A stretch of DNA of 64,000 bases, taken from the NCBI GenBank assembly GCA_026416815.1, contig JAOAEJ010000028.1, forward strand, positions 1 through 64,000. The letters are read 5' to 3'. A program made the position numbers and the translations under genes. Within the stretch, counting starts at the first letter, position 1. The number at the start of each line of letters is the position of its first letter. Origin of the DNA: Clostridia bacterium (lineage in GTDB: Bacteria > Bacillota > Clostridia > Acetivibrionales > DSM-2933). This document shows, piece by piece, positions 11,905-51,166 of the stretch. The notes under the pieces are model-generated. The model did no database searches. It was not told the DNA's origin and saw only the letters and a list, made by a program, of their open reading frames with translations.

Positions 11905-11928
11905 AATATTTTTAAGCTTTCAGTATAT

Positions 11929-12048
11929 AAATTGCAAAAAAGAATCTACAACGAAGTTCCCCCTAAATCTTTTTTGCAATTTGTTACATTAGGTTATATT
12001 GCGATAATCAAATTTTCCCTTGTAATATCATTATCGCAATTTATATAG
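11929..12048 (-). repeat. 120-bp twin-hairpin repeat, copy A
   Basis: Nearly identical to 35446-35565: same length, about nine differences by eye. It has two inverted repeats: a 15-bp perfect one (AAATTGCAAAAAAGA with its complement) and one with ATTGCGATAAT/ATTATCGCAAT arms. Its right end overlaps the last codons and stop of the GGDEF gene. Confidence 0.9.
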
Positions 12049-13741
12049 AATCCTGCTGTGTTTTTGCAACTCTCACACAATTACGACCATTTTTCTTAGC
12101 GTCGTATAGGGCGTCATCGGCATCACGGATCAGTTCCGTTTCAAGGCTAGAGCTTAAAGGAAAACAAGCTATACCAAAGCTTACAGTAACATTTGCAGTT
12201 ACAAGGTTATCCTTAACTTCACTTTGTGCTATTTTCTGTCTTAGTGCCTCTACCTTTTCATATGCGTCTTGCAAGCTTGTACGAGGAAAGAGTATGATGA
12301 ATTCCTCTCCGCCAAATCTCGCAAATATGTCGCTATTTCTCAAGGAACTCTTAACAAGTTCTGCAATTGACTTTAAAACTTTATCACCAAACAAGTGCCC
12401 ATAGGTATCATTAAACTTTTTAAAATGGTCAATATCAAATATTGCAAGAGAAAGTTCATAGTTTCCTTCCTTAGCACTTTTATATTCTTTTTGCAGCCTA
12501 TCATGGAAGTATACCCTGTTGTAAACACCGGTTAATCCGTCGGTTGTAGCCAACTCCTGCATTTGCTGGTACAATTCTGCATTTTCCATTGCTATACCCA
12601 CCTGCTGAGCAATAATGTCAAGCAGTCGTACATTTTCTTCATCAAATGCATTATAATACTTATGTTCAATTAGGACCAATCCCTGCTTACGCGATTTTGT
12701 ATTGAGTGGGATACAAATAAGTGAATTTACATCCCTTCCTTTAGTAAAAGCGTATTCTTCATGATCCACAAAATTCTCGATTATAGGTTTCCCTTTATCC
12801 AAAACATCTACAAGTACTTTAGAATTTATATTGTCATTTATAGCTAAAAGCTCATCTTCATTTTTAATATTTGTAGTATCTACCTTCAAGATCTTTTTCT
12901 TTTCATCATATAAAATAATAGTTGAATTGTTAACCCCCATTACCCCGATAATTATATCATTAACATACTTTAGGAGTTCTTTTATATCAAATATAGAACC
13001 GATAGCCTGGCTTATCTGCTGAAGAGTATAAAATTCTGCTATATTACTTGTAAGCTTTTTATTAGTATCCTCCAGCTTAATGTTCGCATCCTTGAGCCTT
13101 TCATACTGGCACTTTGCTTCTTCCTGAGCGATAGCTATCTGATCATATTTTTCTTCCAGTTCATCCAGCAGCTTTTTGTTATCATGCTCTCTCTCAATAT
13201 TTTCTTTATACATGTATCCACAAAACACTGTGAAAATAATCATTGATAAATAGAAAAATACAACGTAAAAAACTGTGTCGTAAATATTAAACCCATAGAC
13301 ATCAGGACCCTGGTACGGGAAGAAAGCTATGTTGACAACCTTTAGCAGCGCATAAACTATAAATGAGGAACCTATTAAAAGAAGTCCGGGCTTACTTCCT
13401 TTGGATATACTTGTGAAAAACACTGGAAAAACGAGGAAAATAAAAAGCCAGTACCCTACTTGCATAAAAATAATAGAAAACGCTATAAGGAAAAGCTCTA
13501 TTATCCTGGAGGCCATATAGACTTCATTTTTTTCGAACAAGCCTTTTCGCAAAAAAATCAGCTTTGCATAATTTAGTGTAGCTACCAAAGCAAAATAAGT
13601 AATATTTATATAAATATCCGATTCTGCCTGCCGTTCAAGTACCCCCATAGCATTGGAAAGAATAATATAAATAGCACAGACAAATATCAATGCCCATGTA
13701 AACTTGATATACAGCAATTCATATTTTGCGGTTTTATTCAT
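12041..13741 (-). CDS. Membrane GAF-GGDEF diguanylate cyclase
   Basis: 566 aa. Residues ~10-180 hold about six membrane segments, ~185-235 are coiled coil (LLDELEEKYDQIAIAQEE), ~240-385 form a GAF domain, and ~400-560 form a GGDEF domain with the active-site GGEEF and the upstream DGLTGVYNR and FDIDHFKKFND. It should make cyclic-di-GMP from GTP. The inhibitory RxxD is not present in the usual place (SSLRNSDIFARFGGEEF has RNSD, which could serve). The stop codon and the two codons before it lie inside the 120-bp repeat, so the extreme C-terminus may come from it. Confidence 0.92.
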   Translation of the reverse strand: MNKTAKYELLYIKFTWALIFVCAIYIILSNAMGVLERQAESDIYINITYFALVATLNYAKLIFLRKGLFEKNEVYMASRIIELFLIAFSIIFMQVGYWLFIFLVFPVFFTSISKGSKPGLLLIGSSFIVYALLKVVNIAFFPYQGPDVYGFNIYDTVFYVVFFYLSMIIFTVFCGYMYKENIEREHDNKKLLDELEEKYDQIAIAQEEAKCQYERLKDANIKLEDTNKKLTSNIAEFYTLQQISQAIGSIFDIKELLKYVNDIIIGVMGVNNSTIILYDEKKKILKVDTTNIKNEDELLAINDNINSKVLVDVLDKGKPIIENFVDHEEYAFTKGRDVNSLICIPLNTKSRKQGLVLIEHKYYNAFDEENVRLLDIIAQQVGIAMENAELYQQMQELATTDGLTGVYNRVYFHDRLQKEYKSAKEGNYELSLAIFDIDHFKKFNDTYGHLFGDKVLKSIAELVKSSLRNSDIFARFGGEEFIILFPRTSLQDAYEKVEALRQKIAQSEVKDNLVTANVTVSFGIACFPLSSSLETELIRDADDALYDAKKNGRNCVRVAKTQQDSI

Positions 13742-18762: not shown

Positions 18763-19260
18763 GTATTTCCTCCATAACCTACTTTTATACTTTTCCGTAC
18801 AAAGATTAATATATTCTACTCATTCTTGACCAACCTGATTTTATAGATAGTGCTTTATAACATTACAAATAGCTAACTATTTTAATGTTATAAATGCATT
18901 TCCTCGATTGTTATGCCTTACTGCTTCTAGAAACAAATTCGGTTACAAGGCAATAATTGAGATATAGTTTTTAAATTCCAGTTAAACTATAAAGGTTTTT
19001 ACTAACAAGTAACAAGAAATTATTCAATCTAGTAATTAAGATCTTCGCATTTTAGATCCTTTTGCATTTAGTAGAACATTTTGAATTAATTATACAGACA
19101 AATTTCACGCATATAATATTCTACATTTTAGTATGAAATCCTCTAATTTTTTTACTTTTTTATTTAAATATCGAAATTATTATGTATGCTGTCATATTTA
19201 ATCTCTTACAGCACCCCAAATTTTACCTTTATAGTGTTTTATTCTTAATATTTCTTTACA
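18763..19260. other. 500-base AT-rich spacer
   Basis: Between the HD-GYP start and the htrA terminator. No coding, RNA-like or repeated sequence seen; probably holds the HD-GYP promoter. Confidence 0.5.
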
Positions 19261-23459: not shown

Positions 23460-23722
23460 TGTATTCCTCCTACTTACAATTGCAATCATATCTTGCATTG
23501 ATTCTGTACCGCTAATACAGTCTTTACTAATCCTATTATCGATTTTGACAACTTATTACCTGTTATATTTTATCATATTTTTTATTTTTTCCAACAAAGA
23601 GAAATGCATAACTTTCACAAAAATAACTTTAGAAAGTTATGCATTTCTCACAAATAATTAATATTATATTGTAAATTTTCTATAAAGCCTGCTATAAACT
23701 TTAATATATCTAAACAAACTTG

Positions 23723-23793
23723 AAGTAATTTTATCCAGTTAGGCAAGTCGCACTTATCATAGCCCATTGTCTAATGGGAAATCACTAAGTTTA
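23723..23793 (+). repeat. About 71-bp palindromic repeat, copy 1
   Basis: Matches the reverse complement of 51038-51109. It is a long imperfect hairpin: AGTaATTT outer arm, CCAGTTAGGCAA inner arm, a loop with GTCGCACTTA, then TTGTCTAATGGG and AAATCACT. It lies just beyond the trpA stop. Confidence 0.8.
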
Positions 23794-23810
23794 AATTTGG
23801 TTATCCCTAC

Positions 23811-33574: not shown

Positions 33575-33865
33575 TGCTATTACCTCCTGTAACATTGGAA
33601 TAAATACGGTGTATAGGTCTAAGGCGGATAATTTAGTTCTGCTGGAAATAAAGGTGAGCTGATAACAGATTCAAACATTTTCTAATTTTTAAGTCACTTC
33701 AAATTGCAGTGACTAATATAATAATATCATACTGCAACATTTAATAGCAATTTTTTTGAAGTATAAGTTTACACTTACCAAATTTTAAGGTGCAGACGAC
33801 ATTAATAAAACTACTTGACAGTAAAATACCAAACATGGTAATATAAAAAAAATTAATAAACCTTA

Positions 33866-34158
33866 AAGGCTATGAAAAGGAAAAGTAGGTTATTGATACT
33901 TTTACAGCGAACCGGTGGTGGTGTGAGTCCGGTAAAGTTACATAATTGAAGTTCTCCTTCGAGCTGTTGGCTGAAAAAACACCCTTTGTCCAGTATAGGG
34001 TGCTATGCAGTAGGCTAAACCGGAAACTTTCGCCGTTACATGAAGGAGTGTATCAGATGAAATTTCATCTCGTACATTATGAGTGGGCATTTATGCCAAT
34101 TTGGGTGGTACCGCGCGGAATATAACTCCTCGTCCCTTAAGGGATTGAGGAGTTTTTT
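33866..34158 (+). ncRNA. T-box riboswitch leader of DAHP synthase, probable tRNA-Phe specifier
   Basis: The diagnostic GGGTGGTACCGCG is at 34103-34115. Stem I is recognised by AAGGA then AGTA at 33876-33887 and the distal CAGCGAACCGGTGGTGG loop at 33905-33921. Aligning CTCCTTCGAG (33954-33963) to the usual 3' side puts TTC (Phe) at 33952-33954 as the specifier, followed by T rather than the common A. The terminator AACTCCTC.../GAGGAGTT with a T run ends at about 34158. Uncharged tRNA would stabilise the antiterminator and let aroF be read. A Tyr specifier (TAC 33939-33941) is a less likely reading. Confidence 0.95.
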
Positions 34159-34373: not shown

Positions 34374-35387
34374 ATGATTATAATAATGAGTTCATCCGCT
34401 ACGAGAGAACAAGTTGATAATGTTGAAAGAAAATTGTCCGAACTGGGATTTAAAACCCATCCCATATTCGGAGACATAAAAACCGTCATTGGAGCTATAG
34501 GAGACAAAAGACTCCTCAATACACAGCTAATATCCAATATGCCCGGTGTTGAAAACCTCGTCCCTATTATGAAACCCTATAAGCTTGCAGGTAAGGAGCT
34601 AAAACAGACACCTACCATAATAGAAATCGGAGACGTAAAAATAGGCGGTGACGAATTAGTCGTTATGGCTGGCCCTTGTGCAATTGAAAATGAAGCAAAC
34701 TTCTTGGAGACAGCAGTAAAGGTAAAGGAAGCTGGGGCTAAGATATTGCGTGGAGGCGCATTTAAACCACGTACTTCTCCCTATGCCTTCCAAGGCCTTG
34801 AAGAGGATGGACTTAAAATAATGGCTGCTGCCAGAGAAGCTACCGGTCTTAAAATCGTTACCGAAGTTGTTGATACACGTGATGTCGAGCTGGTTTCCTC
34901 ATACACTGATATAATCCAAATAGGCGCAAGGAATATGCAGAATTTCAGACTTCTACAGGAAGCAGGCTCTACTCAAAAACCTGTATTACTTAAAAGAGGA
35001 TTGTCAGCTACCATTGAAGAATGGCTAATGGCAGCGGAGTATATAATTGCTGCCGGAAATAAGGACGTAATTCTTTGTGAAAGAGGCATACGTACTTTCG
35101 AAACGGCTACCAGAAACACTTTGGATTTAAGTGCAATTCCGGTTGTCAAAGAGGCTTCACACCTTCCTATAGTAATTGACCCAAGCCATGCTACCGGAGC
35201 TTGGAAATACGTAGCACCTCTCGCTAAAGGAGCTATAGCAACCGGTGCTGATGGCTTAATTATAGAAGTACACCCCGATCCGGCAAATGCTCTTTGTGAT
35301 GGTCCTCAATCACTACGCCCATCTAAATTTGCTCAGCTAATGAAAGAGCTTGAGCCAATTGCCATGGCAGTAGGAAAAAAAATATAA
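34374..35387 (+). CDS. aroF: 3-deoxy-7-phosphoheptulonate (DAHP) synthase, type I-beta
   Basis: 337 aa. Residues ~1-70 are the ferredoxin-like regulatory domain that in this class allows feedback by Tyr or Phe, and the rest is the TIM barrel: MAGPCAIENE, LRGGAFKPRTSPYAFQG, LLKRGLSAT, ILCERGIRTFE, DPSHATG and EVHPDP. It condenses PEP and erythrose 4-phosphate, the entry to the shikimate pathway that supplies the trp operon. ATG has GGAGG 9 nt upstream. It is 215 bases downstream of the T-box terminator, with nothing else visible between. Confidence 0.98.
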   Translation: MIIIMSSSATREQVDNVERKLSELGFKTHPIFGDIKTVIGAIGDKRLLNTQLISNMPGVENLVPIMKPYKLAGKELKQTPTIIEIGDVKIGGDELVVMAGPCAIENEANFLETAVKVKEAGAKILRGGAFKPRTSPYAFQGLEEDGLKIMAAAREATGLKIVTEVVDTRDVELVSSYTDIIQIGARNMQNFRLLQEAGSTQKPVLLKRGLSATIEEWLMAAEYIIAAGNKDVILCERGIRTFETATRNTLDLSAIPVVKEASHLPIVIDPSHATGAWKYVAPLAKGAIATGADGLIIEVHPDPANALCDGPQSLRPSKFAQLMKELEPIAMAVGKKI

Positions 35388-35432: not shown

Positions 35433-35445
35433 AGCTTTACCATAC

Positions 35446-35565
35446 AAATTGCAAAAAAGAATCTATAACGGAGTTCTCCCTAAATCTTTTTTGCAATTTG
35501 TTACCTTAAGTTATATTGCGATAATCTAATTTTTCCTTGTAATATCATTATCACAATTTATATAG
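35446..35565 (-). repeat. 120-bp twin-hairpin repeat, copy B
   Basis: Same length and orientation as 11929-12048. The first inverted repeat is identical; in the second, the right arm reads ATTATCACAAT instead of ATTATCGCAAT, which keeps a U-G pair only if the minus strand is transcribed. It ends 33 bases past the GGDEF stop. Confidence 0.9.
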
Positions 35566-35597: not shown

Positions 35598-36695
35598 TCA
35601 AACATAATGCTTTATTTCCTCATAACTTACAACTGTATTTTTCCCTATTTCTTTAGCACGATACAACGCCTTGTCAGCACATTCTATAGCGTCTTTTAAC
35701 CGCTTCGAATGTATAGGGTACTGGGCAACACCACAGCTAACGGTTACAATTCTTCGATTTTCATCATCTGCTATATAGACACGTTGCATTTCAAGGTTTT
35801 TTCTTATTCTTTCAGCCACACCTTTAGCAGTTTCAATGTCCAAATCCCTGATGAATATTAAGAACTCTTCCCCTCCATACCTTACAGCTACATCATCATT
35901 TCTTGTATTTTGGCGTATTATGCCTGAAAATAATGTAAGCAGCTTATCACCCCATATATGTCCATAAGTATCATTAAAGCTTTTGAAATTATCCAGGTCA
36001 AATATAAGTACATTTATAGGATTTCCTGTTCTTTGGGCATATTCCTCTTCTTCCTTTAGCTTCTGTTCAAAATGGTGTCTGTTGGACAATCCTGTGAGCT
36101 TATCTGTCCTAGCACGCTTAAATTCCTTCTTATGCATTTCGTTGTACTTCTTCATCTCATAGCATACCAGTGAAACACTAAAGCTTGCAGCTATTAGTAA
36201 AAAGTCTCTTATGAGTAATTTCCAAGGATTTAGTATGCCAATCCCAGCCTTATCCGCAAGAAAACTCGAGGCAGAATAAAGTATAATACAAAGCATACCT
36301 AACCTATACGCACTTGAAATATTTCCATATAAACTACAATAGCCTATTATAAAAAAGAGAAGAATGTATATATCGGAACCTGTTCCTCCAAGCTGATATG
36401 AGAAAGTACAAACAGATACAATATCTATATAGGTTGTTAAAAACAATATTAAACTGAGTTTTCTATTATCCTCAGTGTTTTTCATTACTAAAGATGTTGT
36501 TATAAGAAGATAAAAGGCATATACCGCTAAGGTTTTAACAAAAGCAGAACTATGTATTTTGAACTCCGAGACAAAGAAATACATAAAAATAACCAGCAAT
36601 AAAGAAAGCCATTTAAAACAAATGACAACGCTCCACTTATTCAGGCTTTTTAGTTTTTCTTCCTTAACAGGTTTTCTGGTATTTTTATTTTTCAT
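35598..36695 (-). CDS. Membrane GGDEF diguanylate cyclase
   Basis: 365 aa. About six membrane segments (residues ~20-180), then a GGDEF domain with DKLTGLSNRHHF, FDLDNFKSFND and YGGEEF. No GAF domain. It should make cyclic-di-GMP. It lies upstream on the same strand of copy B of the 120-bp repeat, just as the 12041 gene does with copy A. The EamA gene is 78 bases further upstream in the same direction. Confidence 0.93.
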   Translation of the reverse strand: MKNKNTRKPVKEEKLKSLNKWSVVICFKWLSLLLVIFMYFFVSEFKIHSSAFVKTLAVYAFYLLITTSLVMKNTEDNRKLSLILFLTTYIDIVSVCTFSYQLGGTGSDIYILLFFIIGYCSLYGNISSAYRLGMLCIILYSASSFLADKAGIGILNPWKLLIRDFLLIAASFSVSLVCYEMKKYNEMHKKEFKRARTDKLTGLSNRHHFEQKLKEEEEYAQRTGNPINVLIFDLDNFKSFNDTYGHIWGDKLLTLFSGIIRQNTRNDDVAVRYGGEEFLIFIRDLDIETAKGVAERIRKNLEMQRVYIADDENRRIVTVSCGVAQYPIHSKRLKDAIECADKALYRAKEIGKNTVVSYEEIKHYV

Positions 36696-50767: not shown

Positions 50768-51166
50768 AATTAAATTACACCCCTTCTCAATACTCTACTT
50801 TCATAGTAAAGACTGTTAGAATTTACTTTATAACCATGTCAATTAATATGCTATCATAGACTTAAGTTAGCACAAGTATATAATTTCTACAACAATTCTT
50901 TTTCAAGATATTTATATTAAAATTTAGAAAAAATTTGAAGGTTTTTGTAAGTTTTATGTAGAATAATACCAGTGTTGGGAATGCTCCATTAAATAATTCT
51001 ATTTAATCAGCGCTCTTTAACTAAAGATAGTTTACTGTAAACTTAGTGATTTCCAGCTAGGCAATAAGCTGTGGTAAGTGCGACTTGCCTGGCTGGATAA
51101 AATCACTTTCAACCTAAACTATCTATATCTATAACCTACATTTCTAACAATACTAGGAGGGGTTTA
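50768..51166. other. 400-base spacer carrying palindromic repeat copy 2
   Basis: Divergent region between the HD gene and the zinc-ribbon gene. Apart from the repeat at 51038-51109, nothing was recognised; AT-rich and likely to hold both promoters. Confidence 0.5.
51038..51109 (-). repeat. About 72-bp palindromic repeat, copy 2
   Basis: Inverse of 23723-23793. AGTGATTT and AAATCACT outer arms, CCAGCTAGGCAA and TTGCCTGGCTGG inner arms, loop with AAGTGCGAC. Ends 57 bases before the zinc-ribbon gene. Differences between the copies are mostly transitions in the arms. Confidence 0.8.

Follow-up and report, generated by a model that had tools for sequence, protein, structure and literature searches.

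The window, that is, the whole stretch of 64,000 nucleotides that was analysed, carries two copies of a repeat of 120 bp, each close to the end of a gene encoding a GGDEF protein (Table 1). An earlier note on this DNA had described two copies of equal orientation with about nine differences between them and two inverted repeats in each; indeed, they differ at 10 positions in 124 bp and two hairpins were folded in each. Pfam matches confirmed the GGDEF genes that it had placed beside both copies, and the stop codon of one cyclase does lie inside copy A, while the end of copy B lies 33 bp from the stop of the other cyclase. Its coordinates were a few bases off, and the limits, TA duplication included, are those of Table 1.

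Alignment of 107 copies from the same genome, together with a comparison of filled and empty sites (see below), placed the limits of the element at TA-TATAAATTGC...GCAATTTATA-TA. Terminal inverted repeats (TATATAAATTGC) are present at either end, and the sequence outside TATATAAATTGC...GCAATTTATATA is unrelated between copies, the limits being sharp and common to them. The consensus is 120 bp long (below about 200 bp) and has stop codons in five of the six frames. The repeat is very probably a non-autonomous, non-coding MITE of the IS630/Tc1-mariner type, of about 120 bp, and is called the MITE hereafter. This reading was adopted, and that of a cyclase-linked RNA dropped, because the copies are intergenic, show no strand bias and seldom adjoin GGDEF genes.

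Table 1. Features of the two copies of the putative MITE and of the adjoining genes, in positions of the window.
Feature	Position	Strand	Description and basis
Copy A including TA duplication	11924-12047		
Copy A	11926-12045	+	120 bp, ends TATAAATTGC ... GCAATTTATA; 96.8% identity to genome consensus
Copy A, left TA target-site duplication	11924-11925		Alignment of 107 copies, filled/empty comparison
Copy A, left hairpin, outer arm	11927-11943	+	Overlaps left terminal repeat; fold, cross-species covariation
Copy A, left hairpin, inner arm	11968-11984	+	Inverted copy of terminal repeat core, lacking in autonomous relatives; fold, covariation
Copy A, central 7-bp site	11990-11996	+	Consensus TAAGTTA, here TAGGTTA; IS982-family insertion point in other copies
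Copy A, right hairpin, inner arm	11999-12008	+	Fold, covariation
Copy A, right hairpin, outer arm	12030-12039	+	Overlaps right terminal repeat; fold, covariation
Copy A, right TA target-site duplication	12046-12047		Alignment of 107 copies, filled/empty comparison
GAF-GGDEF gene adjoining copy A, not belonging to the element	12041-13741	-	Pfam GGDEF, E 1.4e-46
TAA stop codon of the GGDEF gene 12041-13741	12041-12043	-	Supplied by MITE terminal repeat
Copy B including target duplication	35441-35564		
Copy B	35443-35562	+	120 bp; 95.9% identity to consensus
Copy B, left target-site duplication	35441-35442		Decayed to CA; sequence, alignment
Copy B, right TA target-site duplication	35563-35564		Outer bases C...G (CTAG-like target)
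Membrane GGDEF gene adjoining copy B, not belonging to the element	35598-36695	-	Pfam GGDEF, E 3e-46

Copy number and distribution

Further copies were sought in the genome from which the window comes (G000; 4.78 Mb in 102 contigs, an assembly 90% complete), whose organism a scan with the GGDEF protein placed near clostridia such as Herbivorax. BLAST returned at least 40 strong copies. Scans with the end patterns, at no more than 3 mismatches, hit the left end 114 times and the right end 123 times, while reversed patterns, used as controls, hit 0 times; the listed ends fall into 128 places, mostly 124 bp in length. In 853 kb of loci, BLAST gave 132 matches, 107 of them near full length. More than 120 copies are thus present in all, and the element is confined neither to the two in the window nor to the surroundings of cyclases. 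The spread of the MITE is recent enough to have left most copies 95-99% identical to the consensus (median 96.8%).

All but one of the 107 full copies (106) are intergenic. Neighbouring genes lie on either strand alike, with counts of 65 and 61 at 5' ends and of 45 and 41 at 3' ends, and copies face the 5' ends of genes more often than the 3' ends (126 vs 86). In five copies, a reading frame that enters the MITE finds its stop codon there, the cyclase at copy A included. Relatives of the MITE were found in other families of the same order, namely in G026 (about a dozen copies, 78-87% identity), G029, G031 and probably G020, while the plasmid and phage collections gave no match. One copy in G026 (L245, C34:14877-15025) bears a 27-bp insertion beside the inner arm of its left hairpin.

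Target site

Three MITE copies lie inside another dispersed repeat, which could be compared with four uninterrupted, that is empty, paralogous sites. Without the MITE the site reads GTTTCTAGCAGC, and with it GTTTC-TA-(TATAAATTGC...GCAATTTATA)-TA-GCAGC, both orientations being seen, a comparison that identifies CTAG as the target and TA as the duplicated part. In line with this, the base before the left TA is C in 71 of the 107 copies, the base after the right TA is G in 71 as well, and just 4 copies have neither. Such a two-fold symmetric preference would be expected of a dimeric DDE transposase cutting with a 2-bp stagger. Insertion at TA with a 2-bp duplication is described for IS630/Tc1-mariner elements, ISY100 among them, in PMC2170065, where the preference of IS630 for a TA within CTAG is also cited (Tenzen and Ohtsubo, 1991).

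Other palindromic repeats occur in the same genome. The window holds, at 18848-18955, an 83% copy of a dispersed palindrome about 107 bp long (CTAGTGCCTTGTAACAG...AAAAAGCACTAG) which is a target of MITE insertion and has 24 matches in the examined loci and the window. Another repeat (CTATATAGATAACC...TTATCTATA), a nearly perfect palindrome of about 109 bp with TATA-type ends, is scattered through the genome, with diverged copies at 51038-51128 and 23704-23805 of the window.

Relatives among IS630-family elements

An IS630-family transposase was almost certainly responsible for the movement of the MITE. Indeed, G029, from the same order, holds a decayed IS630-type copy (L225:247-1104) whose end, TATATAAATCACGATAATGAAGTTACAAGG, compares with the right end of the MITE, TATATAAATTGCGATAATGATATTACAAGG. 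When the proteins of 391 genomes of the class were searched, 18 genomes proved to encode related transposases, with identities of up to 61-75% over parts of the sequence. Where the ends could be resolved, the elements measure about 0.9-1.3 kb and open with inverted repeats of the TATATA type, and in several of them C and G stand on the outer side of the TA. Elsewhere in the class, IS630-family elements with matching ends appear intact, and the one in G187 has two frames matching NF033545 (transpos_IS630) and PF13358 (DDE_3). The right end of the MITE agrees with the ends of the G029 and G187 elements at 18-21 of 26 positions beyond TATATA, against a background of 0 of 3,316 32-mers starting with TATATA, so that its ends are homologous to those of IS630-family elements.

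A DDE_3 search of G000 (90% complete, 102 contigs) found no IS630 copy with MITE-like ends; with the assembly in this state, the source of transposase could be missing from it, extinct or on another replicon. The sole DDE_3 match in the genome (C35:639-1091) was rejected as the parent, as its ends differ (TAGCGCACCC) and its frame is split. That element, at L221:88-1181, is itself of the IS630 family, with a transposase gene broken into two frames where a run of A occurs; this split possibly reflects programmed frameshifting.

From a mechanistic point of view, an IS630-family DDE transposase would bind ends of the TATAAATTGC type, excise the element and insert it at a TA, preferably within CTAG, with duplication of the TA; the MITE would thereby have come to occupy more than 120 sites between the genes of this clostridium. 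We infer this transposition reaction, together with a present or past source of transposase in G000.

Paired structure of the two halves

At each end of the MITE, the terminal repeat is matched by an inverted copy of itself farther in, and each half therefore forms a hairpin. Both strands of both copies in the window fold far better than shuffled sequences (z -4.6 to -5.9). Among 11 sequences from four genomes, pairing is kept in 96% of the cells of the 27 hairpin pairs, a figure favoured by the structure having been taken from one of the 11, which does not favour the double changes. The latter affect 8 of the 27 pairs, in both hairpins and between families; compensatory changes, to which the earlier note had attached weight, are thus present between species. 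The covariation score of 0.255 compares with at most 0.044 for slid partners, and the left terminal repeat and its own inner arm change together. Within G000, stems vary half as much per site as loops (2.4% vs 4.7%), and only one cell is compensated. The earlier note had observed one arm change that keeps pairing on the minus strand only (C-G to U-G); this holds for that change, but not as a general rule, since one-sided transitions that keep a wobble pair number 55 on the plus and 35 on the minus strand across the 107 copies, in a count that ignores kinship, and thus lean the opposite way.

The inner arms are a trait of the miniature: within 75 bases, the autonomous relatives reach an inverted match to the terminal repeat of only 6-9 of 12 positions, against 10-12 of 12 at the ends of the MITE. 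These arms are old enough to co-vary between families. Template-switch correction of near-palindromes makes arms agree without selection. The persistence of the hairpins may reflect either such correction or a structural requirement, and a constraint at the level of structure, on the element itself, is possible. It is conceivable, if rather unlikely, that the miniature gained its hairpins as a functional trait under selection for structure, in cruciform or single-stranded DNA or in the transcript, through which it would win transposase in competition with its parent or withstand insertion between genes, and that compensatory change has kept them across families.

Alternative explanations

The position of both window copies at the 3' ends of GGDEF genes, the strong folding of both strands and the co-varying pairs could also suggest a structured RNA element or a terminator acting on diguanylate cyclase mRNAs, which was the second alternative of the earlier note. 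G000 holds 33 GGDEF matches, yet the 107 full copies adjoin such genes in only 4 of about 212 neighbour slots, two of them in the window, where about 1.7 would be expected (P ~0.09), an expectation based on about 4,100 genes, a number extrapolated from simple ORF calls. This is no significant enrichment, and the lack of orientation bias and the excess of 5' over 3' ends noted above likewise speak against such a role. At the MITE, neither an Rfam match above the gathering score nor a terminator pattern was found; the sole Rfam match in the window is a T-box leader (RF00230, 122.5 bits) at 33863-34140, upstream of the gene 34374-35387. As a general role, the RNA element is refuted by the distribution of the copies, and as an explanation of the repeat it is highly improbable; the position beside two c-di-GMP cyclase genes is chance. 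The arrangement of two inverted hairpins, with a conserved motif on the outside, resembles that of REPINs (PMC3116915). Together with pairing that co-varies between species and the occurrence of Y1 transposases in G000, G026, G029 and G031, it would rather recall a REPIN/BIME-like or IS200/IS605-type palindrome whose two hairpins are recognised by a Y1 (HUH) transposase and which transposes in single-stranded form. The TA duplication and the symmetric CTAG target fit instead a staggered double-strand insertion by a DDE enzyme, and the ends match those of IS630 elements. No Y1 gene flanked by the hairpins, the arrangement of REPINs and their RAYTs, was seen among 30 Y1 loci with flanks of about 1.5 kb, which gave just short marginal matches to the repeat; these transposases were thus rejected as the mobiliser, and such an origin is very unlikely.

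A further candidate for the parent was an IS982-family element, since a 1189-bp unit (C98:2209-3397; L134:2209-3397) has a 313-aa IS982 transposase (NF033520, E 1.5e-74) between two halves of the MITE, which could make the latter its miniature derivative. However, IS982 has its own inverted repeats, ACTCGTTGTGCTAATT and ACCCCTTGTGCTAATT, with duplications of 7 bp (TAAGTTA, for example) on either side, and lies in both orientations in different copies, and also outside the repeat. The contig C98 therefore holds a complete IS982 with both MITE flanks, inserted into the centre of a copy, and derivation of the MITE from this unit, which was rejected, has hardly any probability left. Such insertions into the MITE centre (TAAGTTA) occurred repeatedly: the contig ends C46/C53 and C72/C16, in a pairing that is itself deduced, look like two more, in both orientations and with TAAGTTA/TAAATTA duplicated. 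Sites resembling TAAnTTA outside the MITE hold about three more IS982 copies; the MITE accounts for about half of those seen. At the same position of the MITE, and with the same TAAGTTA duplication, lies a second IS with ends ACGTGAGTTCGATGAA (C72:24761, L171; C99:134, L135), known from only about 130 bp at contig ends. The IS630-type MITE remains the preferred reading, and accords with the first alternative of the earlier note, a mobile palindromic element, given the dispersed copies, TA duplication, empty sites and IS630-like ends; the copies, their limits, the TA duplication, the target preference, the homology of the ends and the covariation are all direct observations.

Comparison with known systems and significance

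The repeat belongs to a known class, that of IS630-type MITEs, in which it is a new family with an uncommon twin-hairpin build. One close counterpart is RUP, the repeat unit of pneumococcus, of 107 bp and 108 copies, for which mobilisation by IS630-Spn1 was proposed (PMC2229807). The two are alike in size (107 and 120 bp), copy number (108 and more than 120), intergenic location, TA target and ends related to an IS630-family element; they differ in organism and sequence, in that each half of the MITE is a hairpin, and in that no parent IS was found in the MITE's genome. The Correia/NEMIS elements of Neisseria are also short, TA-flanked, palindromic and present in many copies, with inverted terminal repeats, but unlike the MITE in sequence (PMC2229807). 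Most MITEs fold end to end and not as two arms, CIR being the exception in the same review (PMC2229807). The CIR of Caulobacter and Brucella resembles the present element in its two long inverted repeats, its two arms with a linker and its conservation between genera; in that review, however, CIR lacks ordinary terminal inverted repeats and its mobility is given as unknown, whereas the MITE has terminal repeats and a TA duplication. REPINs and BIMEs (PMC3116915, PMC2817692) share two inverted hairpins per unit, high copy number and intergenic location, but REPINs are linked to RAYT Y1 transposases, while the target duplication and ends of the MITE point to a DDE transposase of the IS630 family.

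REP sequences are likewise targets for other IS (PMC1525189), and the role of the MITE as a landing site of an IS982-family element parallels this targeting of REP palindromes. What appeared to be a cyclase-linked RNA motif thus becomes a well-bounded family of IS630-type MITEs of clostridia, with its transposase relatives identified. Its hairpins, conserved in the miniature and absent from the related full-length elements, offer a concrete case for considering why bacterial miniatures are often palindromic.
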